Below, in pieces: positions 1-42,139 of a DNA stretch of 64,000 nt. Source of the stretch: Tetramitus jugosus. Taxonomy: Eukaryota; Heterolobosea; Eutetramitea; Acrasida; Vahlkampfiidae. The stretch covers positions 186,001-250,000 of the forward strand of contig OW569381.1 in NCBI GenBank assembly GCA_937625935.1, given 5' to 3'. Position numbers and translations under genes: made by a program. The notes beneath the pieces are model-generated. The model saw only the letters and a list, made by a program, of their open reading frames with translations. It was not told the DNA's origin and searched no databases. Positions within the stretch are counted from its first letter, which is position 1. Every line of letters begins with the position of its first letter.

Positions 1-1322
1 TCCACTGCTTCATTTTCCACCCCCATCATACCTGAGAGAAACTCCTTGCTTGTCTTTCGGGTTTCCCTCACCGTAATTTTACCATCCTTCCACACAACAT
101 TATCAAACCATAAATTGATTTGATGCTTACGGTGAATGCCCAACTTGTCAAGGTCTTTACCTACTGACAATGCCAACCTTCTTCTACGCACGATGGCCCT
201 TGGACAACGTATGAGACAGTGCTGTATCGTCTCTGGCTCTTTGAGACATCGCTCACATCTTTCCATCACTTCATCCTTGCCGTATAGACAGCGTTTTGTC
301 TCTCTTGTGTGAAGAGTCCCGCTACGCACTTGAGCATAGAACCACTCCACTTGTCTATCTTGTGGGTACTTCATAAAGCTGAAGTCAGCGCCGCTCCGCA
401 TTGCGTCAGCTTGCAACCAGTATAGCCCAAGTCCCTTGATTCTTTCAGTCCTTTGTTGGTTCATTATTGACTGTAGCTGCTCTCTACTCTCGATATGGGA
501 GTCCCCCATCATAAGAGTTTCTGCATTACTGCTGGAGGTACCCTCCCTGAGTAACTGACATCCACACTCGTTCATTTGTGACAGCATGATGTTCAGCATC
601 TCATGAGATCTTGCCCCGATCTTGCACCCCGGGAATTCGATTCTGGTTTCCTTCGGACTTTTGAGCTTGTGGTCCAGGACCAGTTGGTCCCTGTTTGTGA
701 TACCACCAAGGTAGAGCTTTTTGAGGATAGCTGATGGCACATATCGTGCTATATTGCAGTCATCACAGTTTTTGTAGACCCGTTCCTTCCCTAGTTTGAT
801 ATTGTATCTGTGCATTCTTAGCGCACACCACTTCAGGTAAGAGTGCTTAGCGTGTTCCAGCCTGTTGCTTGACTGAAATACATTCTCTGATTGGAATGTT
901 TGTTTTTGCTTGATCTCCTCAAGCGTGTCAAGCAACAGCTGTTTCGCTTCGGTATCTCTTTTACCAGACACCATGGTACTGACAAACCATGCGGTTTGTG
1001 TCGTGATCGTTTCTTCTATATCGTTCAGACCGATCGATCCATGATCACTGCTGACAGGTAGCAGTTCGGAGGGGAAGCGTTTCATTGCTACCGATCCGTA
1101 CTTGACCAGCATCCTTCCCAATCTGTTCACCTTGAGTATCCATCCATCAGTCCAATCAGTGAACTTCATTAATTTCTTGCTAATTGTTTTCAACCAATTT
1201 TCATCTATGTTTGTGGCCTCCTGCAGCAGTAGTATGTCTATTTGCTCCGACTCCAGGAAGTCTACGACATCACTGGCCTTCCCTTTGATGCCGTTGATGT
1301 TGTACCACATCACTTTTAACAT
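1..1322 (-). mobile_element. LINE-type retrotransposon ORF2, internally shortened, runs off the window
   Basis: On the minus strand an open frame starts with ATG at 1322-1320 and continues without a stop to base 1 (about 440 codons). The first residues (MLKVMWYNINGIKG, then DILLLQEAT) look like the start of an APE-type endonuclease, with the Asn and Glu expected in its first two motifs. After about 130 residues the frame passes straight into the C-terminal part of ORF2 that is also present at 36.6-37.7 kb, including a CxxC pair (NCDDC) and a CCHC knuckle (CERCLKEPETIQHCLIRC). The rest of the endonuclease and the whole reverse transcriptase core (no FADD-type motif) are absent, so this is an internally deleted or chimeric copy whose frame has stayed open. 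It would not be an autonomous element. The right part is outside the window. Confidence 0.75.
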
Positions 1323-1639
1323 GGTGGCGTTTGTTCTAACTGGGGTTGATTCACTTCAGCATTGCGAGTCGTGTGTACATTAACTATTGTTGATGCAACC
1401 TCTTTGCTGGCTTGTACCAAGTCTTTCATCTGAGCCATTCTTTCGGGTGTTTTGAGGAGTGCTTTCTTCCTCGAGTTCTCCGAGAGCATTGTGTTGGTTC
1501 CATGCTTGCCACTCTCTTTTCTTGGCGTGTCCTCCCTTAGTACCGCGTAGTTGTAAATGAGTGCTTGGCTGTCCGAGAGAGCACACTCTCTCCTCTTAGC
1601 TCGTCTAGCACTTATTAAGAGCTTCTTTCGCTCTTCCAT
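1316..1639 (-). CDS. LINE ORF1 C-terminal part, overlapping ORF2
   Basis: This minus-strand frame ends in TAA at 1318-1316 and overlaps the ORF2 start: the junction reads ATGTTAA, with the ORF2 ATG inside it. The first in-frame ATG is at 1639, giving 107 residues; the frame is open further upstream to a stop near 1747, so the 5' part of ORF1 is missing or degraded. The product is basic and Lys/Arg/Gln-rich (RRAKRRE near its start), consistent with the nucleic-acid-binding ORF1 proteins of non-LTR elements, but no domain is recognisable. It is placed in the element by position and by the ATGTTAA overlap. Confidence 0.5.
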   Translation of the reverse strand: MEERKKLLISARRAKRRECALSDSQALIYNYAVLREDTPRKESGKHGTNTMLSENSRKKALLKTPERMAQMKDLVQASKEVASTIVNVHTTRNAEVNQPQLEQTPPC

Positions 1640-1739
1640 TGTGTGTTCATCGGACGGCTCACTGACACTTAGTGGCTGTGATTGATTATCCACGTTATTG
1701 TTGGGAATCAAGACTGTCTCTTGATGTGGAACTATCTCA

Positions 1740-2152
1740 CCGTTCTATTCTAGCATGATTACATCATTTCTCTCTCCGCTTGCTGTCATGTCCCCGTCAA
1801 GGTTATGAGGAGAACCTTCACAGGGTATTTCTCGTAAATCTGTTATTTACAAGATTTAATGGAATTGTTGTAGTAGTTAGTATCGTAAGAATCGGTGCAG
1901 TATCGAGTAACTTTTCTGTCAGAATTATCTGAGGATCACGCAAAATTCAAAAGGAATGAGGTCAAATTACGTGTGCTGATTTTTGGGCGCGTGGCTGGTC
2001 TGGCGGGAAATCCAATGGTCGTCCCAGGACACATGATGGATTGTGGTCGCCCGAACAAATCCAGGTCGAATCCAGGTTTTGTAATCCAGGCAACCAACGT
2101 CAAATAAAAGTCGGTTGGTTTCTTTCACCAACCAAACAACCAAACAACAACA
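1740..2152. other. spacer without a supported gene
   Basis: AT-rich stretch between the LINE fragment and the chromodomain ORF. Short frames here have no ATG start or family resemblance. The 5' boundary of the LINE insertion should lie in its left part, but its other end is outside the window, so no target-site duplication can be tested. Confidence 0.5.
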
Positions 2153-2950: not shown

Positions 2951-3772
2951 TCAGTCCGACATTTTGTTCAAACAGTGTTGAATTCGTGGTGATGGCAGTG
3001 GTGTTACTACAGTCCTCTGTTCTTCTGCCTCCATTAGCTCAGGAGTGGTCTCCATCCTAGCAGTGGCTTGGGCAACTACTTGTTCCGGCATTGGTACCGG
3101 TTTGTTGCCCCCTTGACCCTTTGTCTTTCCTAATTCCTTGGTGAGTTCTGTGACCTGTCGACGCAGTGCGTCAACCACCGTCAGCAGCTCCTCGTACATC
3201 TTCGTCAACCTCTTGTTGACAGCCTTGAGAGGATCATGTGGTCTCTCGACGTATCGAGTGACCGTGGCCTTTACCTTGTTCTCTCCACTGAGCACTGCTC
3301 GTGCATAGGTTTCGTCACCCATGACCACGAAAGCAGTGTCACGCTTCTTGAGCACACTGGCAACCTTCTCAGGCCCCAGTAGCTTCTTGATGTCGTCCAC
3401 TGACATGTTCTTCATGCCATGGACGATCACCTTTCTTGTGCAATCAACACTGCGCTTGGGTGCAGCAGTGCTGTTACCAATCCTCCTCTCTTTGTTGAAC
3501 AACTCAACAAAGTCATAGATGCGGTCACCCTTGACCGTCACCCATGCAACAAAGCGTTGCTGGCCTTTCCTCTTGATGACCTGGACTCGGTTGAGCCAGT
3601 CACCAAACTCCTCTCCTATCTTTCTTGCCAAAGATGACTGAGAGACACCATCACCGTTGCCAGTAATGACCACCTCTCTGTCACTTGGCCTAGAGCCTTT
3701 CCGTGCAGTGGTCCACACTGCATAACGGCTGTTGCCGTATTCCTTCACCAAATTTGTTGAATCACCAGACAT
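2951..3772 (-). mobile_element. LINE ORF1 protein, full-looking reading frame
   Basis: An ATG at 3772 opens 273 residues on the minus strand. The central part (KEYGNSRYAVWTTA; EEFGDWLNRVQVI; KRDTAFVVMGDETYARAVL) has an alternating strand/helix pattern and is followed by a coiled-coil-like segment (MYEELLTVVDALRRQVTEL), a layout common in ORF1 proteins of non-LTR elements (nucleic-acid-binding domain plus trimerising coil). The same protein is present as a broken copy at 28.66-29.2 kb, which shows that it is repetitive. No ORF2 follows it before the chromodomain ORF, so the element is 3'-truncated or the downstream part was lost. Its 5' leader (3773 onward) is interrupted by another LINE insertion. 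Confidence 0.65.
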
Positions 3773-3801
3773 GTGATTCCGTTTTTTTCTGCGTTTTTGC
3801 C

Positions 3802-3817
3802 AGTCCTCATGGACATT
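3802..3817. repeat. target-site duplication, distal copy
   Basis: AGTCCTCATGGACATT occurs here and again at 4461-4476, flanking the LINE fragment at 3816-4460. Here it runs directly into the T-tract that is the poly(A) tail of the minus-strand insert. The last two Ts could belong to the tail, so the duplication is 14-16 bp. Confidence 0.85.
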
Positions 3818-3878
3818 TTTTTTTCCATACAACAGTTGTTGCCACTTTGTTCAATACACTACTATGAGACATATCGTC

Positions 3879-3901
3879 GCTCAGAACCGCAGGTTCTGAG
3901 C
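3879..3901. other. 3' UTR hairpin of the LINE fragment
   Basis: Perfect 10-bp stem (GCTCAGAACC / GGTTCTGAGC) with a three-base loop. A second palindrome, TCGCTAGCGA, follows at about 3918-3927. Paired 3' hairpins with three-base loops also occur in the element at 37.66-37.73 kb, although their sequences differ. Such hairpins may be read by the element's reverse transcriptase (inference). Confidence 0.7.
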
Positions 3902-4157
3902 TATTGTGCAGGTCTCTTCGCTAGCGAGTCTTTCCAGACTTTGTACATTCTTTTGATTCAAGATCTTTTCATTGCATTTACCAATCTTTTCACTTTTGTT
4001 TCCCGCTTCTTGCGGCCATATACTACTATTTCCTTCATCAGTACCTCCTTCTGGTCCTCTTCTTTACCCATTAGTCCTGCCAGCAGCTCTTCCGATGTTC
4101 GACTGGGGATCCGAGGTAGCATTTTGCCATCATCGTACACCGCATTGTCAAACCAGA

Positions 4158-4318
4158 GATGTGTGCTCATTGCAAGAGCGAACCGGAGACGATCCTACAC
4201 CTCTTGGTGGAGTGTGAAGAAGCCAAAAGAGCAAGAAGCGAACTAGTGGAAGAATTCAAGGTTTCATTGAACAAACTGGAGTTTATGAGACCAGCCAAGC
4301 TCAATGGTCTCCATCAGT
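4158..4318 (+). repeat. inverted segment inside the LINE fragment
   Basis: This block reads as LINE coding sequence on the plus strand, whereas both flanks read on the minus strand. Flipping it restores one continuous reading frame across both junctions. The breakpoints coincide with a short imperfect inverted repeat: AAACCAGAGATG at 4150-4161 against CATCAGTGGTTC at 4312-4323. Confidence 0.75.
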
Positions 4319-4460
4319 GGTTCATACAGGTCTCGTACTACAGTCTTTGTGTGCAGAGTGCCACTCCGGACTTGGTGATAAAACCACAACTCACCTCTTT
4401 CTAGACCGAAAGGGCACTTCAAGAACTCATTCCACTCCTTATCCTTCTGCAGTTCAGCTT

Positions 4461-4476
4461 AGTCCTCATGGACATT
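4461..4476. repeat. target-site duplication, tRNA-proximal copy
   Basis: Second copy of AGTCCTCATGGACATT. Its right edge is 27 bp from the first base of tRNA-Phe at 4504. Confidence 0.85.
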
Positions 4477-4503
4477 CATATTTAGACCTTCAAAATGGTA
4501 TGG

Positions 4504-4576
4504 GCCGAAATAGCTCAGTTGGGAGAGCGTGAGACTGAAGATCTTAAGGTCGCGTGTTCGATCCACGCTTTCGGCA
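4504..4576 (+). tRNA. tRNA-Phe (GAA)
   Basis: The sequence folds as a complete cloverleaf: a 7-bp acceptor (GCCGAAA / TTTCGGC), a D arm with TAGCTCAGTTGGGAGAGC (the A box), an anticodon stem TGAGA / TCTTA around the loop CTGAAGA (anticodon GAA), and a T arm GCGTG-TTCGATC-CACGC (the B box). The discriminator is A; there is no intron and no encoded CCA. It is the target landmark for the LINE insertion just upstream. Confidence 0.95.
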
Positions 4577-4635
4577 CAGTTTTATCATCCCACTTTTGAA
4601 GTCTACAGCCAAGCAACAAGAGCGAAACAGAAATA

Positions 4636-18690: not shown

Positions 18691-21600
18691 TCAAGGTCTC
18701 ATTGATCTTCTTGTTCGCTTTCTTCTTTTGCTTTTGTGATCCTCATCCTCATTGTTATCCTCCTCGTTTGATTCTTCCACGATTTCTCTCTTCTTTCTCT
18801 TTGTTGATTTCTTACTATCTTTCTTGTTTTTTAGGAACTGTCTTGTGATATCAATCAATGCTTTATCACTCATGAGGTCCATAGGCGTTTGGTCATTAGA
18901 GTCCCTGATGTTAGTGTCAGCTCCAAATTCGAGTAAGTCTTGAAGAATGTCTCGCGAAGAGGAGAGTGAAACTACATGAAGACAAGTTCTACCACTCTTG
19001 TTCTGGATATTGATGAATTGTGCTACTTCCTCCAGTTTTAGATCGTCAAAGGAAGGTCGGTTGCCTTTTGTTCGTTTTGTTCGTCTGGGTTCATTTTGGC
19101 TGTTCCGGAATCGGCTAACGATGGAGAACAAGATAGAGGACCATTCATTTCCTACACATTTGTTTTGAGGATACTTGGCCAATAGATGTAAGAGAGTGTT
19201 TCCTGTCTTGGGATCAACAGCTTTCACTGAATGATCCAACAAGGTATCCTTTTCATGATGACGAACAAGCCAATCAAACATGTGGCTGCCTACTTCATTC
19301 ACTAGAAGTTGCAGTGTAGTAAGAGAGCCAAACGCGAGTTCATCATTTTCGTTTTCTGCAGATGGGATTTGGGTCATCAGTTCGAGCCATGACGGATCTG
19401 CTTCTTTTTCTTCGGTTGCAATCATTAGAGTTACAAACCTTTTCTCATAGTCTAAATTCAAATTATGATGAGACAAACATCTTCGGATAATGCGATGTAA
19501 TTGATGCTTAGTCGGGACGATATTGTGCTTTACAGCAGCAATCAATGCTAAATCATGGTACTTTTTCGCAAACGCAATATCAACTGGATTATCGAATTGA
19601 TCGGCAAAAGGACTGGTGTAAGGCCAGATAATTGAGAATGCATCCACCATATTAGCTTCACATGCAAGTATCGCAGCATTTCTTGGTTTTCTTCCATCCA
19701 CTACATCATTGTCCAGTGACTGGCTAATCAATTTAGATACTTCTGCCTTTGTTTTACACTTTCTCCTCCAATGCTTGATAATACACTGACATAGAGAGGC
19801 GTCTCTTTGGGCCGCAATGTGTAAGAGATTGGGTTTAGAATCCTGTGATTCGTCTCTAATAAAGACATTATGAGTACGATCCATCAATTTGTCAAACATT
19901 GGTACATCTATCGCAACTTCCAGAGCAAGGTACATCACTGGCAGGGGCACGACTTCATCGGGATTTTTGCTTGCAAACACTGGCTTATTCGCAATATCCC
20001 TCATTTTGATCGATAAATCATCCATTAGTTGAACACCATTTGATGCTTCGAGCAATATTTGAAGTGGACTTAAGCCAGATATATCTTCGAGGTGGTTTTC
20101 GGTTGATTTCTCAGATTTTTCATAAAGCATTTCTGGATAATGCTCAAGACAGAGAAGGGCACAGTGTTTGACAACCGGATAACTACTACAAGTGAATGAC
20201 TTCCGACTTTTGTTCATCTCTGATATTGCATCTGTTAAGTTTGATAGAAATTTGAACAAATAGTGCAAGGCATTGAAACCATGTTTCATCCTTGGACTTA
20301 AGAGCTCCGATAGAGGTTTTGAGGAAATAGATGGATTTAACATCAGATAGTTAATCAGTTGGTAATTGCAGTTGCGAATTGCTGATGTCACAATGGTGTC
20401 TCCCTCGTTGCTGAGAACGTCCACTTTGGCACCAGCTTTGATCAGTGTAACACTAATTTCATCAATAAAATTTTCAGGAGCTGAATGTTTGAGGAAACGC
20501 CTCGCAAAATGACGCGGGAGTACCTTTGAATTCTTTTGGTTGGCAAAGAACAAGGGGGTTTCTCCCTTTTCATTCAATGAGTTCGGGTCAAAGCCATTGT
20601 CCAGGAGCCATTGAATTGTTTTGGTTTGGGAATTCGCCATAGCTGCATGGAGCAGACTCCCAAATGATGTGGGATAGTTTTTCAGTGATTGATTCTGAGA
20701 AAAACAAGATAGCTTGGCAACTCTTTCAAGAGACTTGGTGGAGATCATCAGCTGAAGTGGGGTTTCGTTGTTCTTGTTCTTTGCATACAGGAGATTCTCG
20801 GGACAATTTGAGATGAGGTATTCCACAATATCTATTTGATGAGCAAGGCAGGCTGAATGAAGTACATTGTTACCAGATTTGTCCAAGACCGTGAGGGAAG
20901 CTCCCTTTTCCACCAGATATTGAATATCTTCCAATTCATTGTCGAAATCACTACTTGTTAGGCATAGTTGAATGAGTGGGAGCTCCTTTTGATCACCTTT
21001 AATTTTTCCATGTGAGTCCCCAAGAGAGATTAAATCGGGTCTCAAAGATAATAGGTATTGAATTAACTTGAATCGAACTGGGGAGCTCTCCTGATCAAGA
21101 AGTGCTCCTACCAGAAAATTTCGAACTCCATTGACTACCAACTCAGGCTTGAACCTTTCAATGATTATTTTAATCATCGATAGATTAGCGTTAGTGGAAC
21201 ATTCTGAAATTAATACACCCAGGAGGGTGTATGTCTTGAGGTAGGACCAATCGAACGGCTTATTAATATCAAAAACTAACTCTGGATACTTCATTCGGTT
21301 GATGTCTGTTAACAACTCCAAGACCTTGGAGACCACATTGGTATTCCTGCAAACAAACTTTGAGTCCAAGGTCAAGTAATGAGCAAGCTGAAACAGTTTT
21401 TTCTGCCCGGATAGGGCAAGTAACGGTTTGAACAAGGCATATTCACGAACAGCAATATCCACTATAGTTTCAATCGTTTCTTCTCTTAAATTGTTATTTC
21501 TTCTGTTCATGTGTAACAACACAATTCCTTCTTTCTTTGACAAGTAGTTCAGATATTGAACATACGAAACAACTGGAAGGTGAAGGTCACTCTCTCGATG

Positions 21601-22506
21601 CTCCTGTGTCTCCGGTTCAACGACTGACACCTCAAAATGTGGAAATACATCTTTTAGATGGGTAAATGTACTAATGTTCAAGTGTACGTAGGAGGAATCG
21701 AGAAGCGAGTAGTTCAATGTTAAGTTTTGAATATCAACTTCAATCAACTCAGCCCGAAGGTTTCTTACGAAATCATCATCGGATATCACCATTCCATCTC
21801 TCGCCTTCTTAGAAAAAAGTGAAAACAAAATTAATAGTTCGTCTGAGGGAAGATGCAATCCAATGAAGTTAAGGTTCTTAGTCGAGCGAGGCAATGAACA
21901 AGCAATCGTGTACACGTCTTTCAGGTTAATAAAGTCATTCCTCCAAAAGTGATCACGCGAATGTCTTGTTCCCAAAACATCCAACGTTTCAAGTCGCTTC
22001 AAATTTGGCAACAAAATTTCCACACAAACCAAAAACTCACCTCTATCAGAGAATGAGCACAATCCCAACTTTAAGTGCTTCACATTGCAAAACACATTCG
22101 CCAAGAATGCAAATATTGAGTGCCTCCGGTAAAGTACTTTAGAATCCATTCGATATCCCCTTCCAGTTCCACCAATGGGCTTAAACTGAACAATTTGATT
22201 GTCATCTCTCACGTAGAACTTTGGCCTTCCATCATCCACCAGATTCAAATACGTTACATTGCCATACACTTGTTCTTGGAATTCATAGAGCCATTGGGAG
22301 CACACTGATCTCAACATGAAGTAGAATGGAAAAGCAGGAATGAATGACATGATTGAATGGAAAATGTCTCTTGGAATCGGTTGATCAGCCATGACAAAAA
22401 ATCCCAAAAGTTTGTCTCTTTCTCTCTCTGGATCTCTTTGCCATGTGTTTGAGTCTATAATACCGCCATCTGCTTCTTCCTCTGGTGGGTTTTGTTGCTC
22501 TTGCAT
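18691..22506 (-). CDS. F-box/ankyrin-repeat protein, copy 1
   Basis: 1,271 residues from the ATG at 22506. Near the N-terminus, WQRDPERERDKLLGFFV precedes an F-box (PIPRDIFHSIMSFIPAFPFYF...SVCSQWLYEF). Then comes an LRR-like strip (NVKHLKLGL, LKRLETLDVLG) and, over residues 380-1240, many ankyrin repeats (for example KSGNNVLHSACLAHQIDIVEYL, KTGNTLLHLLAKYP, SGRTCLHVVS). The C-terminus is a Lys/Arg/Glu-rich tail with basic clusters resembling nuclear signals. F-box proteins of this kind select substrates for SCF ubiquitin ligases; the ankyrin repeats would bind the substrate. It is a paralogue of the gene at 38099-42139, in inverted orientation 15.6 kb away. Confidence 0.88.
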   Translation of the reverse strand: MQEQQNPPEEEADGGIIDSNTWQRDPERERDKLLGFFVMADQPIPRDIFHSIMSFIPAFPFYFMLRSVCSQWLYEFQEQVYGNVTYLNLVDDGRPKFYVRDDNQIVQFKPIGGTGRGYRMDSKVLYRRHSIFAFLANVFCNVKHLKLGLCSFSDRGEFLVCVEILLPNLKRLETLDVLGTRHSRDHFWRNDFINLKDVYTIACSLPRSTKNLNFIGLHLPSDELLILFSLFSKKARDGMVISDDDFVRNLRAELIEVDIQNLTLNYSLLDSSYVHLNISTFTHLKDVFPHFEVSVVEPETQEHRESDLHLPVVSYVQYLNYLSKKEGIVLLHMNRRNNNLREETIETIVDIAVREYALFKPLLALSGQKKLFQLAHYLTLDSKFVCRNTNVVSKVLELLTDINRMKYPELVFDINKPFDWSYLKTYTLLGVLISECSTNANLSMIKIIIERFKPELVVNGVRNFLVGALLDQESSPVRFKLIQYLLSLRPDLISLGDSHGKIKGDQKELPLIQLCLTSSDFDNELEDIQYLVEKGASLTVLDKSGNNVLHSACLAHQIDIVEYLISNCPENLLYAKNKNNETPLQLMISTKSLERVAKLSCFSQNQSLKNYPTSFGSLLHAAMANSQTKTIQWLLDNGFDPNSLNEKGETPLFFANQKNSKVLPRHFARRFLKHSAPENFIDEISVTLIKAGAKVDVLSNEGDTIVTSAIRNCNYQLINYLMLNPSISSKPLSELLSPRMKHGFNALHYLFKFLSNLTDAISEMNKSRKSFTCSSYPVVKHCALLCLEHYPEMLYEKSEKSTENHLEDISGLSPLQILLEASNGVQLMDDLSIKMRDIANKPVFASKNPDEVVPLPVMYLALEVAIDVPMFDKLMDRTHNVFIRDESQDSKPNLLHIAAQRDASLCQCIIKHWRRKCKTKAEVSKLISQSLDNDVVDGRKPRNAAILACEANMVDAFSIIWPYTSPFADQFDNPVDIAFAKKYHDLALIAAVKHNIVPTKHQLHRIIRRCLSHHNLNLDYEKRFVTLMIATEEKEADPSWLELMTQIPSAENENDELAFGSLTTLQLLVNEVGSHMFDWLVRHHEKDTLLDHSVKAVDPKTGNTLLHLLAKYPQNKCVGNEWSSILFSIVSRFRNSQNEPRRTKRTKGNRPSFDDLKLEEVAQFINIQNKSGRTCLHVVSLSSSRDILQDLLEFGADTNIRDSNDQTPMDLMSDKALIDITRQFLKNKKDSKKSTKRKKREIVEESNEEDNNEDEDHKSKRRKRTRRSMRP
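22152..22440 (-). repeat. segment nearly identical to copy 2
   Basis: This F-box-coding stretch aligns almost base for base, including third codon positions, with 38305-38594, whereas the sequences just downstream fall to roughly half identity in protein. The break is sharp after GGTG(R/K)GY. Confidence 0.75.
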
Positions 22507-22847
22507 TCTTTTGCTACTTCTCGAAAAAACTGGAACTTCGCGCTTCCAGCGCGTACGAAAAATACAAGTTGCTTTTTGCGCATGGAAAGACCACAACCAG
22601 GTTAACTTTGGTTTAAGAACACATCGACATCACTTTTTCGGCTCAACTCCGCCACTGTTATTGTTGGTTAGAATGTCAAGTTTTTTCACACAAATTAGAA
22701 CGTAACTGTATTTAGAAAGTCGCAAAATTTTTTTCCACTTTTGGTCGGAAGATGCATCTACGATTAAAGAAAGCAATCGTTCATGTCAGCTTGGTGAGAA
22801 TGTTGATAATATTGGATGTTCGAGACATGTCGTGATTCCGTGATGCT

Positions 22848-28528: not shown

Positions 28529-28599
28529 CTCGAGCACCGGGAATCGAACCCGGGTCGCCAGAGTGACAGTCTGGAATGCTACCCCTATACCATGCCCGA
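28529..28599 (-). tRNA. tRNA-Asp (GTC)
   Basis: On the minus strand a cloverleaf of 71 bases: acceptor TCGGGCA / TGCTCGA with one G-T pair, D arm TGGTATAGGGGTAGCA, anticodon stem CCAGA / TCTGG with loop CTGTCAC (anticodon GTC), T arm ending GGTTCGATTCC. Discriminator G. No intron. A LINE ORF1 remnant begins 60-65 bp upstream of its 5' end. Confidence 0.95.
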
Positions 28600-28661
28600 T
28601 TTACACTAATTCTCTTAGCTAGATATATACTAATTATAACGAACAAAAAAACGAACACACA

Positions 28662-29210
28662 CCCCTGTTGTTCGTGAGTATGAGAATCCACGCTATGCTG
28701 TGTGGACCACAGCACCAAGAGAAACTGCACCAAGCAGCAAGGAGGTCATCATCATTGGAAAGTGTGATGACTCTCCCAAGGCTGGATTTTGGTGAATGGC
28801 TCACCAGGGTCCAAGTTATCAAGAAGGGCCCCAAGAGGTTTGTTGCGTGGGTAACTGTTGTTGATGACAACATTTTTGTTGAGTTTTTCAACCGCAACAA
28901 GAAGGTGAGTGGCTGCAAGTCAGCACTCAAGCACAACGTTGATTGTGCCAAGAAGGTCCTCCACGGTGTCAAAGGTAAGACGGAGGACGACATCAAGGCC
29001 ATGCTTGGCACAACAAAGGTCAAGAACGTGCTCAAGAAGCACAACACCGCCTTTGTTGTGATGTAGTCCGAAACGTATGCCGAAGCTTTGCTTCGAAACG
29101 TTCAATAAAACCAAAGCACTTCCTTCAACGCCCACGTAATCCTGTCAAGGCTGTCAACAATAGGCAGACCAAGATGTACCAAGAGCTCCTGGCTGTGAGT
29201 TGAACACAGC
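28662..29210 (+). pseudogene. broken LINE ORF1 copy upstream of tRNA-Asp
   Basis: Translated in two frames, this gives VVREYENPRYAVWTTA (matching KEYGNSRYAVWTTA of the ORF1 at 3.7 kb), then FGEWLTRVQVIKKG, FVAWVTV, KKHNTAFVVM and an in-frame TAG where the other copy has MGDETY. A frameshift near 28780 and the stop at 29064 make it inactive. It begins a little inside the ORF1 start. Orientation: 5' end toward tRNA-Asp. The 3' side ends near AAGATGTACCAAGAGCTCCTGG; no poly(A) tract was found. Confidence 0.75.
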
Positions 29211-32600: not shown

Positions 32601-33654
32601 GGCACTTCATTATTTTTATGCAGGTTACATAGATCTCATTTGATCATAGGTCATCAACTTTGTTTCTTGGGTTGTTAACAAAATATCCCCGTTGTTCTCT
32701 AACTTGTTGTTCTTTGCATTTGATCCAGTAATCTATTAATTGATCATTAAGTTCCTTTCTCTCGGTGAGTCGGTCAATATCATTCTGTGAGATTGCAATG
32801 TTCCATGTCTGAATCAAAGAATTATTTTCATCCATCGCTCTCAATTTATGTTGAGGAGTTGTTGAAGGACAAAGAATTATTTCCGTTTCTTAGGAGTAGT
32901 TGGTTCTGTCTGATTGTAAATTAGATCAATGTTGTCATTTTTTGATCCTCGTTCACATCATCCCCTGGACTGTCCAATTCAGCTGATTCACAAAAACCTT
33001 CGACAATATGATGGAGTATAATTGATAAATTTTGATCAATAGAAGAAGACACTGTCTCTACAGTATGTTGAGGAAGACATCTGCATAAATTGAAATTCAT
33101 CCTCGAGATTATCCACGTATCTATTTAAATCATCAGTCAGTTAACGATGAAAGTATATCATCTGTTGCCAAATTCAGATTATATCCAGAACCATTCCCAT
33201 ATCCCAGATGTTCCAATTCACCTCTCCTGGTTGTCTGAGATGAATCCTGCGAATTATTAGACCTATCGATAGATTTTCTTTTCATTATTTCAGTCATCAT
33301 GGAAGCCTTCAGTTGTTTAGTCTTGTTCAGTGTGGAACTCCATGTACTGTCACTAATTGAGACTCAAGTGCAGCTGAATAGTGAAAAGGCGAGTGAGTGC
33401 ATCAAAGAAACAACGAAAAAGACAGACTTACTCTGAAGAAACTTTACACTCTATGAGAGATAAATTGATGACACAAGGAGAGAGCACCGGCCACAAGAAG
33501 GTTCGATCCCATTGTAAAACCAGTCATAAGAAGCTATGGTTTCCGTGTAGTGTTGAAGTCTTTTTCGTTGTTTCTTTGATTGCAGAGAAAAGATGGAAAA
33601 GGTTGAGCATACATGTCGGCAGGTTTATTGGGCTAATTTTCCTTCAGATCGAGA
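29648..33654 (-). pseudogene. decayed or heavily spliced minus-strand coding region
   Basis: Many minus-strand stretches look like protein but none is long: 29851-29648 (KSYFMCLVQITHHKVHILD), 30782-30357 (very Asp/Glu-rich), 31155-30946, 31760-31322, 32844-32644 (QNDIDRLTERKELNDQLIDYWIK, reminiscent of the start of Ulp1-type C48 peptidases), and a stretch near 33040-32940 (VETVSSSIDQNLSIILHHIV). They are broken by stops and frame changes. Either this is an inactive large element or a multi-intron gene whose splice sites I cannot place. The C48 idea rests on one motif. Confidence 0.35.
30958..31001. repeat. perfect 15-bp hairpin
   Basis: ACGTTTGGAATAGTA at 30958-30972 is repeated inverted at 30987-31001, with a 14-base loop. 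Inside the decayed minus-strand region. Confidence 0.8.
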
Positions 33655-36472: not shown

Positions 36473-36544
36473 GGGGACAACGGAGAATCGAACTCCGGAC
36501 CTCTCGCACCCAAAGCGAGAATCATACCACTAGACCATTGTCCC
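36473..36544 (-). tRNA. tRNA-Pro (TGG)
   Basis: On the minus strand: acceptor GGGACAA / TTGTCCC, D arm TGGTCTAGTGGTATGA, anticodon stem CTCGC / GCGAG with loop TTTGGGT (anticodon TGG), T arm GGTCCGGAGTTCGATTCTCCG. Discriminator C. No intron. Its 5' end (36544) faces the LINE insertion, and its distance to the first target-site duplication (36574) is 29 bp. Confidence 0.95.
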
Positions 36545-36573: not shown

Positions 36574-36588
36574 CCTGATCAAACTGGG
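36574..36588. repeat. outer target-site duplication, tRNA-proximal copy
   Basis: CCTGATCAAACTGGG, repeated at 37899-37913. Confidence 0.9.
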
Positions 36589-36598
36589 GGGGAATCCG
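36585..36598. repeat. inner target-site duplication, left copy
   Basis: TGGGGGGGAATCCG, repeated exactly at 37798-37811. It overlaps the outer duplication by four bases because the second element landed just inside the first. Confidence 0.85.
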
Positions 36599-37797
36599 AG
36601 GAAAAAAAAACAAACATTCCAATCAGAGAATGTATTTCAGTCAAGCAACAGGCTGGAACACGCTAAGCACTCTTACCTGAAGTGGTGTGCGCTAAGAATG
36701 CACAGATACAATATCAAACTAGGGAAGGAACGGGTCTACAACAACTGTGATGACTGCAATATCGCACGATATGCCATCAGTTATCCTCAAAAGGCTCTAC
36801 CTTGGTGGTATTACAAACAGGGACCAATTGGTCCTGGACAACAAGCTCAAAAGTCTGAAGGACATCAGAATTGAATTCCCGGGGTGCAAGATCGGGACAA
36901 GATCTCATGAGATGCTGAAAATCATGGTGTCACAAATGAACGGTTGTGAGTGTCAATCACAAAGGGAGGATCCCTCCAGCAGTAACGCAGAATCCCTCAT
37001 GATGGGGGACTCCCGTATCGAGAGCAGAGAGCAGCTACAGTCAATGATGGATCAACAAAGGACCGAAAGAATCTCGGGAATGGGGCTCTACTGGCTGCAA
37101 GCTGATGCAATACGAAGCGGAGCTGACTTCAGCTTTCTGAAGTACCCACACAAGATCAATAGGCAAGTGGAGTGGTTCTATGCTCAAGTGCGTAGCGGTA
37201 CTCTTCACACAAAAGAGACAAAGCGCTGTCTATATGGCAAGGATGAAGTGATGGAAAGATGTGAGCGATGTCTCAAAGAGCCAGAGACGATACAACACTG
37301 TCTCATACGTTGTCCAAGGGCCATCGTGCGCCGAAGAAGACTGGCATTGTCAGTAGGTAAAGACCTTGACAAGCTGGGTATTCATCATAAGCAGCAAATC
37401 AATATATGGTTTGATAATGTTGTGTGGAAGGATGGTAAAATCTCTGTGAGAGAAAATCGTAAGACAAGCAAGGAGTTCCTATCTGGTATGATGGGGGTTG
37501 AAAATGAAGCAGTGGAACAAGTAACAAAAGGTTTGAGGATGAACGGTGTGAAGAAGGTCATGGCGGAAAAGAAAGCAAAATCATTCGTGAACAGGGTGAA
37601 GAGGAGGTGCGTCGACACCCTTCATCGCCTATTCATCTCCCACAAGGAAGACACATAACAATGACGCTCTACGAGCGTCATTGTGAGAAATGAAAAGTAA
37701 CGGAGGAGATAACGCTCTTCGAGCGTTATCCAGTGTAAATAGTCAGAAAATAAAATCGGAGCAACCGAAATGGTTGTATTAAAAAAAAAAAAAAAAA
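36599..37797 (+). mobile_element. inner 5'-truncated LINE (ORF2 C-terminal region and 3' UTR)
   Basis: Bounded by the duplicated TGGGGGGGAATCCG and ending in 17 A (37781-37797). It carries the same ORF2 3' part as at the left edge of the window, over 85% alike: FQSENVFQSSNRLEHAKHSY, NCDDCNIARY, then (after a two-base loss near 36765) LYLGGITNRDQLVL, the CCHC knuckle CERCLKEPETIQHCLIRC, INIWFDNVVWKDGK and a basic tail, stop at 37658. The ATG at 36747 starts the post-shift frame of 303 residues. The 3' UTR has two hairpins. It is inactive because of truncation and the frameshift. Confidence 0.85.
37658..37730 (+). other. paired hairpins in the LINE 3' UTR
   Basis: Stem 1: ACAATGACGCTC (37658-37669), loop TAC, GAGCGTCATTGT (37673-37684), 12 bp. 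Stem 2: GATAACGCTC (37708-37717), loop TTC, GAGCGTTATC (37721-37730), 10 bp. They share the core ACGCTC/GAGCGT. Possibly recognition sites for the element's reverse transcriptase (inference from R2 and UnaL2 elements). Confidence 0.85.
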
Positions 37798-37811
37798 TGG
37801 GGGGGAATCCG
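37798..37811. repeat. inner target-site duplication, right copy
   Basis: TGGGGGGGAATCCG directly after the A17 tail of the inner element. Confidence 0.85.
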
Positions 37812-37898
37812 TGCCGGTGCAGAGCAGCATCACTCCCAGTAACAAGGTGAAATGAATAAAGAGGCAATTCATGTTGTATGGAAAAAAAAAAAAAAAAA

Positions 37899-37913
37899 CC
37901 TGATCAAACTGGG
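37899..37913. repeat. outer target-site duplication, distal copy
   Basis: CCTGATCAAACTGGG directly after the outer element's A17 tail. Confidence 0.9.
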
Positions 37914-38098: not shown

Positions 38099-41000
38099 AT
38101 GCTGAGTAAAGTTGCAACTCTGAAAAAGAGCAAGACCAAAGAGGACCAGAACTCCTCCCAACAACATACCAATGTTGATGGTGATGATGATCACGATGTA
38201 CCAATGGATAACAATCAAGAAGAAGAAGCACAAAAATCAACAGAAGATGTGAGAAAACAAGAGGAGGCAGAACAACAAGGAGAAGACTGTGGATTCAATG
38301 TTTGGCAAAGAGATCCAGAGAAAGAAAGAGATAAGCTTTTGGGATTTTTTGTAATCTCTGGTCAACCGATTCCAAGAGACATTTTTCATTCAATCATGTC
38401 ATTCATTCCTGCTTTTCCATTCTACTTCATGTTGAGATCAGTGTGCTCCCAATGGCTCTATGAATTCCAAGAACAAGTGTATGGCAATGTAACGTATTTG
38501 AATCTGGTGGATGATGGAAGGCCAAAGTTTTACGTGAGAGAGGATGATCAAATTGTTCAGTTTAAGCCCATTGGTGGAACTGGAAAGGGATATCAAATGT
38601 CCTCCATTAGATCCGATTACTCCATTGGATCCTATTATCGTAGAGGTCCCATTTTTGACTTCTTGGGAAATGTGTTTTGTAATGTGAAGCACTTAAAGTT
38701 GGGTCTCGGTTCATTCTTTGACGCACATAATGATTTTTTGTTGTGTGTCAACCATTTGTTGCCAAAGTTGAATCAACTCGAAACATTGGATATTCTGGGA
38801 ACGAAACAATCATATTGTCCTCGTCACTATTGGCATGAATATTCAATCAGCGGAACTCAACTGGCGGCTATTGCGCACTCGTTACCCAGTTCAACAAAGA
38901 ACCTAAACTTCATTGGCTTGACTCTACCCTATGATGATACCCTCAAGTGTTTCGAATTGTTCACAAAGAAGATAAGGAATGAAGCCAATGCATCTGACTA
39001 TCAGGAGTTTGAACTAGATTCGATAGAAGTTGATATTCAAGGTTTAACCTTTCGCTACGCTCGTTTAGTTTATGGTCATTCCCACATCAATCTGAATACA
39101 ATAGACCGCCTCAAAGGCATATTCCCCCGTTTTGAATTGTCGCTCATAGAGCCGGAAAAAGATGGTAATCTTTTTCTCAGTAGTTATTCAAACCTACCAT
39201 TTGTTTCATATGTTGAATATCTGCACTATATGTCAAAGGTTGAGGGAGTTTGCTTGTCACACATCGAACAAAGACAGAGAAATTTAACTGATGAAATGAT
39301 CGAAGCGACGGTCGATATTGTTGTTCGTGAATATCCTTCCTTCCAACCTTTACTCACCTCATCGGTGGAGAATAAGAATCTGTTCCAATTGAAGCCCTAT
39401 ATTAAGCTTGACCCACAGTTTGTTTGTAGGATCTTCAATGTGATCAAGATGTTGGAGTTATTAACAGATCCTAGCCGAATGAAATATCCAGAGTTAGTTT
39501 TAGATATCAATACGACGTTTGAAAATTCTTACGGGCTATCATGCACCCTCTTGGGTCTCTTTATTGCAGATTGTTCCACCGAGGGATTGCTCTCAATGAT
39601 TAAAACTATCATTGAGGACTTTAAACCTGAGTTGGCAATCAATGGAGTTCGAAACCTTTTGTTGGAGGCACTTGAAGGACAGGAAAGCTCGCCAGTTCGA
39701 TTCAAATTAGTTCAATATTTATTATCATTGAAGCCTGATTTAATATCCCTTGGCGACTCTGAGGGAATAATCAGAAATGATCAAAAAGAGCTCCCACTCA
39801 TTCAACAAATTCTATCGAATCCCAAGTCCGTCTCTAGTTTGGATGATATCGAATATTTGGTGGAAAAGGGAGCCTCACTCACCATTTTGGACAAATCTGG
39901 TAACAATGTGCTTCACCCAGCTTGCTCTGCTAGGCAACTAGACATTCTTGAATACCTCATTTCAAAGTGTCCCGAAGATGTACTTTATGTGAAGAACAAA
40001 ACCAATGAGACGCCTCTCCAGCAAATGTTCCTTTCTCCAAAAGGAATTCATAATGACTTTTTTACCCACACGCTTGGTCAAGATTCTCAAGAACAGTTTC
40101 TGGAAGCAATTTCCAAGTTGTCTTGTTTTTCTCAGAGTCAATCACTTCAAAACTATCCCACATCATGCGGCACTCTGCTCCATGCAGCCTTAATGCGTCC
40201 CCGACCAGCAACAATTCGGTGGCTGCTGAACAATGGTTTCGATGCGAACTCATTGAATGAGGAAGGAGAAAATTCCTTGTTCTTTGTGAAGCATGAGAAT
40301 CCACAACTTATTCAGTTTAATACTTGGGGCAACTATTCCAGTACGAACCAAAAAGAATATGTAGACGAAATGGGTATTGAATTGATCAAGGCTGGTGCCA
40401 AAGTTGATATTCAGAGTACCAAGGGAGATACTGTTGTTACAGCAGCGCTTCGGAACGGAAATTATCCATTGATTAACTACATGATGTTGAATCCATCTAT
40501 TTCCTCGAAACCTCTATCAGAACTCTTGAGTCCAAGAATGAAACATGGCCTCAATCCATTGCACTATTTGTTCAAATCCATTGTGGATACAACGAATGAA
40601 CTTTCTGGAATGAACAAACGGCAGAAAGTATTTACATACGGAACTTATCCTGTGGCTCGACACTGTGCACTTCTCTGTCTAGAGCATTATCCTGAGATGC
40701 TGTATGAAAAGTCTGAGGCATCAACAGAAAGTGACCTTGAGGAAATTTCTGGTTTGAGTCCTCTTCAAATGTTGCTCGAAGCTGCGAAAGGAATTCAATT
40801 ATTGAATGACTTTTCAATCAAACTAAGTGATATTGCAAATAAGCCAGTATTTTTCAGCAAAGATCCAGCTGAAGTTGTCCCTGTGCCAGTGATGTACCTT
40901 GCCTTGGAAGTGGCGGTTGATATTCCATTGTTTGACAAATTGATGATTCAAACTCATAATGTATTTCTAAGGGATGAATCTCAAGATTTTAAACCCAATC

Positions 41001-42139
41001 TCTTACACATTGCAGCCGAGAGGGATGCCTCTCTATGTGAATGTATAATCAAGCATTGGAAGAAGAAGCTTAAAACAAAAACAGAATTGGCCAAAATGAT
41101 CAGTCAACCACTAGAAAATGATGTAGTTGATGGGAGAAAACCAAGAAACGCTGCAATACTTGCGTGTGAGGCGAATCTGATTGATGTATTTGCAATTCTT
41201 TGGCCATACGCCAGTTCTTTTGCGGATCAATTCGACTGTCCAGTTGAAATTGCTTTGGCAAATAAGCATCATGATTTTGCATTGGCTGCTGTAGTTGAAC
41301 ACAATATTGTGCCATCAAAAGACCAATTACATCAAATCATTCGAAGATGCTTAGCTCAGGATAAACTGAAAGCCGACCATGAGAGCAAATTTGTTACTCT
41401 TATGATTGCCACTGAAGAGAAACAAGCTAAACCATCTTGGCTTGAACTGATGACTGAGACACCATCTGGGGATATCGATTCTGATGAACCAAATAGTTGC
41501 AATCACCGCAGTACCTTGCAATTGTTAGTTTCTGGTATGGGCAGTTACGTGCTCGATTGGCTTGTCCGTCATTACAGCAAAGATCCACTTTCGGATCGTG
41601 CAATGAAGTCTGTGGACCTCAAAACAGGAGACACACTCTTGCATTTACTGACAAATTATTCTAAATTGAGATTTGTTGGTAATGAATCTGCTTCTATCCT
41701 GCTCTCCATTGCTAAGCTATTTAGAGCAGATAATGTTCAGAATGTTGAAACACCAAAGAGAGCAAAGCGAACCAACACAAGTCCACCTCATCTTGAGAAT
41801 ATGAAGATGGAAGAGTTCGCCAATTTTATCAACATTCAGAACAAGAGAGGCAGAACTTGTCTCCATAATGTTGCGATTCACAATTCACAAGCCATTCTTC
41901 AAGAACTACTTGAGTTTGGGGCCAGCACCGAAGTTAAGGACTTGGATGGCAAAACACCTTTGGAATTAATGAGCAGCCAATCATTAATTGATCTTACAAA
42001 CAGATTCCTGGACAAGAAAAATGGAAAGAAGCCAACAACAAAGAGAAAGAAGAAAGCAGACTCTGAATCTGATGATGAAGATGATGATAGGTCTTATGGA
42101 ACGCGCTCCAGCAAAAGAAGAAAGAAAACACGAACATAA
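38099..42139 (+). CDS. F-box/ankyrin-repeat protein, copy 2
   Basis: 1,346 residues, single exon, from an ATG at 38099. An acidic, Gln-rich N-terminal leader of about 75 residues, then WQRDPEKERDKLLGFFV, the F-box (PIPRDIFHSIMSFIPAFPFYF...), an LRR-like strip, and ankyrin repeats from about residue 400 to 1300 (for example KSGNNVLHPACSARQLDILEYL, KTGDTLLHLLTNYS, RGRTCLHNVAIHNSQAILQEL). A Lys-rich tail with acidic patches ends the protein. The leader, and a few inserts, distinguish it from copy 1. Likely a substrate receptor of an SCF ubiquitin ligase (inference). Its promoter lies directly beside the LINE insertions upstream of tRNA-Pro. Confidence 0.9.
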   Translation: MLSKVATLKKSKTKEDQNSSQQHTNVDGDDDHDVPMDNNQEEEAQKSTEDVRKQEEAEQQGEDCGFNVWQRDPEKERDKLLGFFVISGQPIPRDIFHSIMSFIPAFPFYFMLRSVCSQWLYEFQEQVYGNVTYLNLVDDGRPKFYVREDDQIVQFKPIGGTGKGYQMSSIRSDYSIGSYYRRGPIFDFLGNVFCNVKHLKLGLGSFFDAHNDFLLCVNHLLPKLNQLETLDILGTKQSYCPRHYWHEYSISGTQLAAIAHSLPSSTKNLNFIGLTLPYDDTLKCFELFTKKIRNEANASDYQEFELDSIEVDIQGLTFRYARLVYGHSHINLNTIDRLKGIFPRFELSLIEPEKDGNLFLSSYSNLPFVSYVEYLHYMSKVEGVCLSHIEQRQRNLTDEMIEATVDIVVREYPSFQPLLTSSVENKNLFQLKPYIKLDPQFVCRIFNVIKMLELLTDPSRMKYPELVLDINTTFENSYGLSCTLLGLFIADCSTEGLLSMIKTIIEDFKPELAINGVRNLLLEALEGQESSPVRFKLVQYLLSLKPDLISLGDSEGIIRNDQKELPLIQQILSNPKSVSSLDDIEYLVEKGASLTILDKSGNNVLHPACSARQLDILEYLISKCPEDVLYVKNKTNETPLQQMFLSPKGIHNDFFTHTLGQDSQEQFLEAISKLSCFSQSQSLQNYPTSCGTLLHAALMRPRPATIRWLLNNGFDANSLNEEGENSLFFVKHENPQLIQFNTWGNYSSTNQKEYVDEMGIELIKAGAKVDIQSTKGDTVVTAALRNGNYPLINYMMLNPSISSKPLSELLSPRMKHGLNPLHYLFKSIVDTTNELSGMNKRQKVFTYGTYPVARHCALLCLEHYPEMLYEKSEASTESDLEEISGLSPLQMLLEAAKGIQLLNDFSIKLSDIANKPVFFSKDPAEVVPVPVMYLALEVAVDIPLFDKLMIQTHNVFLRDESQDFKPNLLHIAAERDASLCECIIKHWKKKLKTKTELAKMISQPLENDVVDGRKPRNAAILACEANLIDVFAILWPYASSFADQFDCPVEIALANKHHDFALAAVVEHNIVPSKDQLHQIIRRCLAQDKLKADHESKFVTLMIATEEKQAKPSWLELMTETPSGDIDSDEPNSCNHRSTLQLLVSGMGSYVLDWLVRHYSKDPLSDRAMKSVDLKTGDTLLHLLTNYSKLRFVGNESASILLSIAKLFRADNVQNVETPKRAKRTNTSPPHLENMKMEEFANFINIQNKRGRTCLHNVAIHNSQAILQELLEFGASTEVKDLDGKTPLELMSSQSLIDLTNRFLDKKNGKKPTTKRKKKADSESDDEDDDRSYGTRSSKRRKKTRT
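38305..38594 (+). repeat. segment nearly identical to copy 1
   Basis: Partner of 22152-22440; see there. Confidence 0.75.

Follow-up and report, generated by a model that had tools for sequence, protein, structure and literature searches.

LINEs upstream of the three tRNA genes of the window

The position of a LINE 27 bp upstream of a tRNA-Phe gene in the heterolobosean Tetramitus jugosus raises the question of whether RNA polymerase III (Pol III) guides the integration of these elements, and whether the same arrangement recurs across the genome. The stretch of DNA analysed (hereafter the window) comprises 64,000 bases, positions 186001-250000 of contig C38, in an assembly of 26,348,746 bases and 56 contigs. 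On the sequence side, the assignment to Heterolobosea is backed by one named relative, Acrasis kona, at 42% identity. ARAGORN and Rfam agree on three tRNA genes in it, for Phe, Asp and Pro (Table 1). The initial annotation had reported a LINE upstream of each of them, with the element's 5' end toward the tRNA and the tail pointing away, and all of the elements it described do point away from their tRNA. The duplication claimed at tRNA-Phe is an exact 16-bp repeat; the outer duplication at tRNA-Pro lies 29 bp from the gene as described, and a second, nested LINE is also present there at 40 bp. The degraded ORF1 upstream of tRNA-Asp could be read by eye, and a search of this stretch for a target-site duplication found none.

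Table 1 LINE-derived features and target genes in the window (positions counted from its first base)
Feature	Position	Strand	Basis
tRNA-Phe (GAA), target gene	4504..4577	+	ARAGORN + Rfam
tRNA-Phe duplication AGTCCTCATGGACATT, gene-proximal copy, 16 bp, 27 bp from gene	4461..4476	.	exact repeat
tRNA-Phe duplication AGTCCTCATGGACATT, distal copy, adjoining poly(A) tail (poly(T) on +)	3802..3817	.	exact repeat
5'-truncated LINE fragment at tRNA-Phe, 3' end TTGTATGG-poly(A), containing end of divergent ORF2	3818..4460	-	3' end + duplication
Older stacked element at tRNA-Phe (L128), 5' end + ORF1 (family A), 3' side lost	2951..3801 (limits approximate)	-	
Oldest stacked remnant at tRNA-Phe, ORF1 C-terminal end, ORF2 start, ORF2 C-terminus	1..1850 (limits approximate)	-	
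tRNA-Asp (GTC), target gene	28529..28599	-	ARAGORN + Rfam
Degraded ORF1, family B like, upstream of tRNA-Asp	28638..29200 (limits approximate)	+	read by eye
tRNA-Pro (TGG), target gene	36473..36544	-	ARAGORN + Rfam
Outer tRNA-Pro duplication CCTGATCAAACTGGG, proximal copy, 29 bp from gene	36574..36588	.	
Outer tRNA-Pro duplication CCTGATCAAACTGGG, distal copy	37899..37913	.	
Outer LINE at tRNA-Pro, 3' end TTGTATGG-poly(A), split by inner LINE	36589..37898	+	
Inner tRNA-Pro duplication TGGGGGGGAATCCG, proximal copy, 40 bp from gene	36585..36598	.	
Inner tRNA-Pro duplication TGGGGGGGAATCCG, distal copy	37798..37811	.	
Inner nested 5'-truncated LINE at tRNA-Pro, 3' end TTGTATT-poly(A)	36599..37797	+	

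At least three LINE remnants lie in series upstream of tRNA-Phe, all in one orientation. The fragment next to the gene matches the ORF2 C-terminus at 32% over 179 columns, and the older stacked element behind it has an ORF1 match at 2972-3772. In the oldest remnant, read by eye except for the ORF2 C-terminus, the ORF2 start was placed near 1322, the middle of ORF2 is missing, and the match to the ORF2 C-terminus runs past the window edge (-138..749; row winL16). The inner LINE at tRNA-Pro matches the ORF2 C-terminus at 36747-37655, and its duplication is partly composed of the first bases of the older LINE.

Association of LINEs with tRNA genes across the genome

LINEs were located genome-wide with two queries: 133 matches were listed for the C-terminal part of ORF2 from the nested LINE (130 of 402 candidates scored) and 146 for an ORF1 from the window (144 of 304 candidates scored). 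The tRNA places combine 53 nuclear Rfam hits with 100 B-box matches, merged to 143 and reduced to 142 by removal of one B-box inside a LINE. The Rfam hits come from the 63 listed of 1593 candidates, after exclusion of 10 of the 63, on contigs C54 and C56, as probably organellar; the B-box matches are the first 100 of 243. ARAGORN found a tRNA in 10 of 17 fetched 151-base B-box segments, so that some of the 142 places are B-box matches only. Contigs C54 and C56 are both 49,460 bases long, carry tRNA hits at identical positions, and are probably the mitochondrial genome in duplicate.

Among the matches listed, all 22 LINE-tRNA pairs within 100 bp are upstream and divergent. The same arrangement accounts for 51 of the 54 pairs within 2 kb (1 upstream in the same direction, 2 downstream) and for 64 pairs within 5 kb, next to 1 upstream-same and 6 downstream pairs. 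Counted by gene, a divergent LINE match lies upstream of 22, 28 and 37 of the 142 tRNA places within 100, 300 and 2000 bp, respectively. In 2000 random placements, with lengths assumed for some contigs, the maxima were 2, 4 and 6 tRNAs at these distances, and the means were 0.08 at 100 bp and 1.33 at 2 kb. At 2 kb the 37 of 142 places observed lie so far above these values that chance is excluded as the cause of the association.

The LINEs themselves show the association too. Upstream sequence of 420 bp was fetched for the 108 of the 146 listed ORF1 matches that include the N-terminal part (query start at or before position 20). Seventy of these ORF1 starts adjoin a tRNA gene, 68 identified by ARAGORN within 400 bp and 2 by Rfam, all divergent; in each of the 68 ARAGORN cases the element's 5' end faces the tRNA 5' end. 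Another 31 lie at the 3' end of another LINE (29 with an exact GTTGTAT, 2 with a variant), 5 adjoin a 5S rRNA gene found by Rfam, again divergently, and the last two were placed by eye, one within a LINE ORF1 and the other beside a tRNA-Asp remnant. The ORF1 start is usually 60-115 bp from the tRNA; at one locus (L104) the distance is 31 bp.

The same loci bear on the idea that tRNA genes and LINEs were copied together as blocks, so that the insertions are not independent. Two tRNA-Gln flanks (L136, L153) are indeed 81% alike, but they are the one pair above 80% identity among the 27-bp flanks of the 68 tRNAs, and the loci differ in isotype, LINE family and duplication. Since the 68 tRNAs represent 18 named amino acids, plus 4 unassigned genes, and are spread over 36 contigs, block copying does not explain the association, and we assign it a nearly negligible probability. 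The geometry of Pol III-guided integration that had been suggested from the window is supported genome-wide among the matches listed, by a fixed distance, a fixed orientation and many tRNA isotypes.

Two groups of insertion distances

Target-site duplications were sought at 54 distinct tRNA loci for which enough sequence was at hand. The Pro locus of the window, like six loci that had been seen twice, entered this count once. A duplication of variable length (10-19 bp, median 16), together with a poly(A) or 3' tail, was present at 42 of the 54, as in APE-type LINEs. None was found at 10 loci, and two false matches (L100, L131), which are repeats of a stacked element, were dropped. In 41 of the 42 loci the duplication starts 25-42 bp from the tRNA and ends, at the junction with the element, 41-57 bp from it; the exceptional start lies at 71 bp (L043). 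Where a start overlaps poly(A), its position may be off by some bases. The distances fall into two groups, with 16 starts at 25-31 bp, 25 at 35-42 bp and none at 32-34 bp. A sharp peak at 25-30 bp had been anticipated; the short fixed distance stands, but there are two peaks, near 28 and 39 bp.

Could the endonuclease simply read a DNA sequence that happens to sit upstream of tRNA and 5S genes? Such a preference would fit a weak bias for T before and A after the nick, as well as the A/T richness of the flanks from -25 to -29. However, positions from 10 bases before to 8 after the duplication start stay below 0.35 bits, partly from the calling of the poly(A) overlap, and positions -30 to -20 in the flanks of the 68 tRNAs carry at most 0.33 bits. 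Moreover, the distance is kept where the nested tRNA-Pro LINE and the stacked copies have cut into an older LINE. Sequence recognition is therefore very unlikely to be the explanation.

A different account holds that insertion is random and that selection in a gene-dense genome has spared just the copies upstream of tRNA genes. The genome is compact (26.3 Mb), and the flanks of Pol III genes are harmless sites. Selection nonetheless leaves unexplained the 25-42 bp window of starts (41/42), the single orientation (68/68) and the near absence of downstream copies; among the best 30 ORF2 matches, a divergent tRNA lies within 1.5 kb on the 5' side in 14 and a tRNA on the 3' side in 1. We consider this account highly improbable.

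5S rRNA and U6 genes

The initial annotation had tRNA genes as the target. They are hit as it proposed, but not alone, as 5S rRNA genes are hit in the same way, which fits Pol III genes as the target class. For nine of the 47 5S genes listed (of 772 candidates), the 300 bp upstream contain a divergent LINE match, against a random mean of 0.09; one gene has a LINE match downstream. In two further members of the best 30 ORF2 matches, of which Rfam covered 18, a 5S gene lies on the 5' side. At two 5S genes, duplications begin 34 and 36 bp from the 5' end of the mature RNA. These starts are slightly nearer than those at tRNA genes, as would be expected if the transcription start, rather than the mature end, is the reference point. 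For the two U6 genes found, a number too small to be informative, no LINE match lies within 5 kb.

The 47 listed 5S rRNA places are dispersed across many contigs and mostly have equal scores.

Anatomy of the elements

Two full-length elements (L158 and L159) encode an ORF1 of 463 and 370 aa and an ORF2 of 1274 and 1283 aa, respectively; the reading frames overlap by 7 bases and an ATG is present for ORF2. Pfam detects a reverse transcriptase in both ORF2 proteins (RVT_1, E=1e-24 and 5e-24) and an Exo_endo_phos domain (E=5e-5 and 2e-5, the first a little below its cut-off), and a Cys/His motif was seen by eye. By these domain matches, the LINEs are two-ORF elements whose predicted ORF2 contains APE, RT and zinc finger domains. 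Pfam found no RNase H domain. A search for a known family gave none convincing for ORF1, and its alignment gives the impression of two tandem RRM-like units. With the RT profile, R2 reaches a score of 90 bits and 8c8j, which we take to be human L1 ORF2p, one of 54 bits.

ORF1-only elements are also present. Two of them lie stacked in L160:444-3026, and their ORFs, 388 and 414 aa long, are intact; three ORF1-only copies measure 1322-1332 bp. HAL1-type LINE derivatives likewise keep ORF1 and have no ORF2. A hairpin of the form GCAAC-loop-GTTGTAT lies directly before the poly(A), its stems and loops varying between loci; the GCAA...TTGTAT core occurs in 109 of 122 tail occurrences, and most distinct cores form a predicted hairpin. 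Because autonomous and ORF1-only elements have the same hairpin core, the tails suggest that the ORF1-only elements are mobilised in trans.

At L160, L161 and L011, ORF1-only elements some 1.33 kb long whose ORF1 is intact are stacked on one another; they were apparently mobilised in trans.

Element type, ORF2 lineage and insertion distance

The two distance groups largely follow the 3' end of the element. Of 13 elements ending in TTGTATGG-poly(A), 12 belong to the near group and 1 lies at 35 bp, whereas 24 of 27 elements ending in TTGTATT-poly(A) belong to the far group, with 2 in the near group (30 bp) and 1 at 71 bp; two elements with other 3' ends are in the near group. One element (L103) was placed by hand in the TTGTATGG class from undecided. 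Mean distances are 28.5 bp for TTGTATGG and 38.1 bp for TTGTATT with the outlier left out, a difference of 9.6 bp (bootstrap 7.8-11.2); the medians are 11 apart, and the distributions differ with the outlier included (Mann-Whitney p=7e-7). One DNA turn (10.5 bp) falls inside the bootstrap range, and the gap between the groups may reflect helical phasing. The two LINEs at tRNA-Pro obey the same rule, with the TTGTATT element at 40 bp, which lies outside the 42 loci, nested in the TTGTATGG element at 29 bp.

We also considered whether the 3' end alone sets the distance. This was rejected on account of the exceptions, 3 of 27 among TTGTATT elements (30, 30 and 71 bp) and 1 of 13 among TTGTATGG elements (35 bp).

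The 3' ends largely correspond to ORF2 lineages. The end GTTGTATT is found in 29 of the best 30 ORF2 matches, and two more distant ORF2 matches examined, on contigs C35 and C26, have the TTGTATGG end. In a tree of ORF2 C-termini comprising 29 of 34 rows, with long branches flagged, including that of the window fragment, a 100/100 branch separates 25 TTGTATT rows from 3 TTGTATGG rows, one of which is long and partial. L046, with another 3' end and a distance of 31 bp, groups beside L044 (TTGTATT, 41 bp), and their ORF2 C-termini are near-identical. Elements with a family B ORF1 occur with either 3' end and in either distance group, so the distance is not fixed by the ORF1 family on its own.

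Comparison with Pol III-targeting elements

The arrangement closely resembles that of the dictyostelid element TRE5-A as described in the accessible text of three reports (PMC5911963, PMC5006619, PMC5391098). Insertions of TRE5-A lie upstream of tRNA genes at 40-54 bp, the element's 5' end toward the tRNA, and upstream of 5S genes at 37-41 bp. TRE5-A stacks in tandem, has two ORFs with an APE-RT-zinc finger organization, gives rise to an ORF1-only derivative, TRE5-A.2, that is moved in trans, and has an ORF1 protein that contacts TFIIIB (PMC5911963, PMC5006619, PMC5391098). By that published description, the T. jugosus elements share with it the location before tRNA and 5S genes, the orientation with the 5' end toward the gene, the stacking, the two ORFs and the ORF1-only form, and the published 40-54 bp agrees with the element junction measured here (41-57 bp, 41 of 42 loci). 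By analogy, these LINEs appear to work like TRE5. They differ in their host group, in having two lineage-tied distance groups and in their short 5' leaders. TRE5 reads ORF2 through a -1 frameshift; ORF2 of L158 and L159, which overlaps ORF1 by 7 bases and has an ATG, may be read in that way or from the ATG.

Are they, then, true members of the TRE5 family, acquired by descent or transfer, rather than a case of independently evolved targeting? Geometry, use of 5S genes, stacking and ORF1-only derivatives are all as described for TRE5-A. On the other hand, no TRE5 protein appears among the named protein matches, most matches, including most of the 46 homologues, being without names, and the T. 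jugosus RT scores higher against R2, while TRE5 is assigned to the L1 clade in the accessible part of PMC5911963. We consider membership in the TRE5 family unlikely.

Other comparisons are more distant. NLTR-B of Polysphondylium pallidum also lies upstream of tRNA genes, at 39-64 bp, but is described with three ORFs and with an RNase H domain (PMC5911963), for which Pfam gave no match in the elements analysed here. The elements DGLT-A, Ty1, Ty3 and Tj1 choose Pol III genes as well, Ty3 via TFIIIB and Ty1 via Pol III (PMC5911963, PMC10050235); these are LTR elements with an integrase, often found in either orientation. The accessible text on the Naegleria lovaniensis genome gives 190 LINE copies (PMC6125883). 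The searchable literature, with subscription papers and Repbase outside it, yielded no report of LINEs targeting Pol III genes in Naegleria or other Heterolobosea, and the entries listed from the wider literature concerned dictyostelids, yeast, Entamoeba or further unrelated cases.

Proposed mechanism of Pol III-guided integration

tRNA and 5S genes have different internal promoters and have TFIIIB and Pol III in common. The use of both by the two gene classes is also stated in the accessible text of PMC5911963. Based on the position and orientation of the insertions, integration is very probably guided by the Pol III initiation machinery bound upstream of the target gene. Because TFIIIB and Pol III are what tRNA and 5S genes share, the guide is placed at one of these two, an identification that we infer from position.

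We propose a plausible sequence of steps by which such insertions could arise. First, the element RNP would dock on TFIIIB, which sits immediately before the start site, or directly on Pol III, and the endonuclease would nick the DNA immediately outside the docked complex. The hairpin GCAAC...GTTGTAT by the poly(A) may allow one RT to copy both autonomous and ORF1-only elements. New copies would then insert between the gene and older copies, and stacks would build up, because the target gene is the reference point for the distance. Finally, two element lineages would give a pair of nick windows separated by roughly one helical turn. More specifically, and only tentatively, the Pol III-guided LINEs of Heterolobosea may have arisen independently of the dictyostelid TREs, with two ORF2 lineages that nick at ~28 and ~39 bp on the same DNA face, outside TFIIIB, and with ORF1-only elements placed by whichever ORF2 copies them; we regard this combination as possible but somewhat short of probable. 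If it is true, genomic spacing reveals which ORF2 machinery made each insertion.

LINE targeting of Pol III genes is documented only for dictyostelids in searchable papers. The same geometry in a second, distant host group would argue that a safe site on the upstream flank of the Pol III complex has been found more than once. The two spacings offer a natural experiment on what determines distance, and the stacked copies a record of insertion order beside each gene.

Other features of the window

Two ORFs of 1301 and 1346 aa (18691-22596 on the minus strand and 38099-42139 on the plus strand) are apparent close paralogues in opposite orientation. At 33401-33580, a perfect 23-bp inverted repeat, its arms 134 bp apart, flanks a stretch that includes the B-box-like sequence GGTTCGATCCC.
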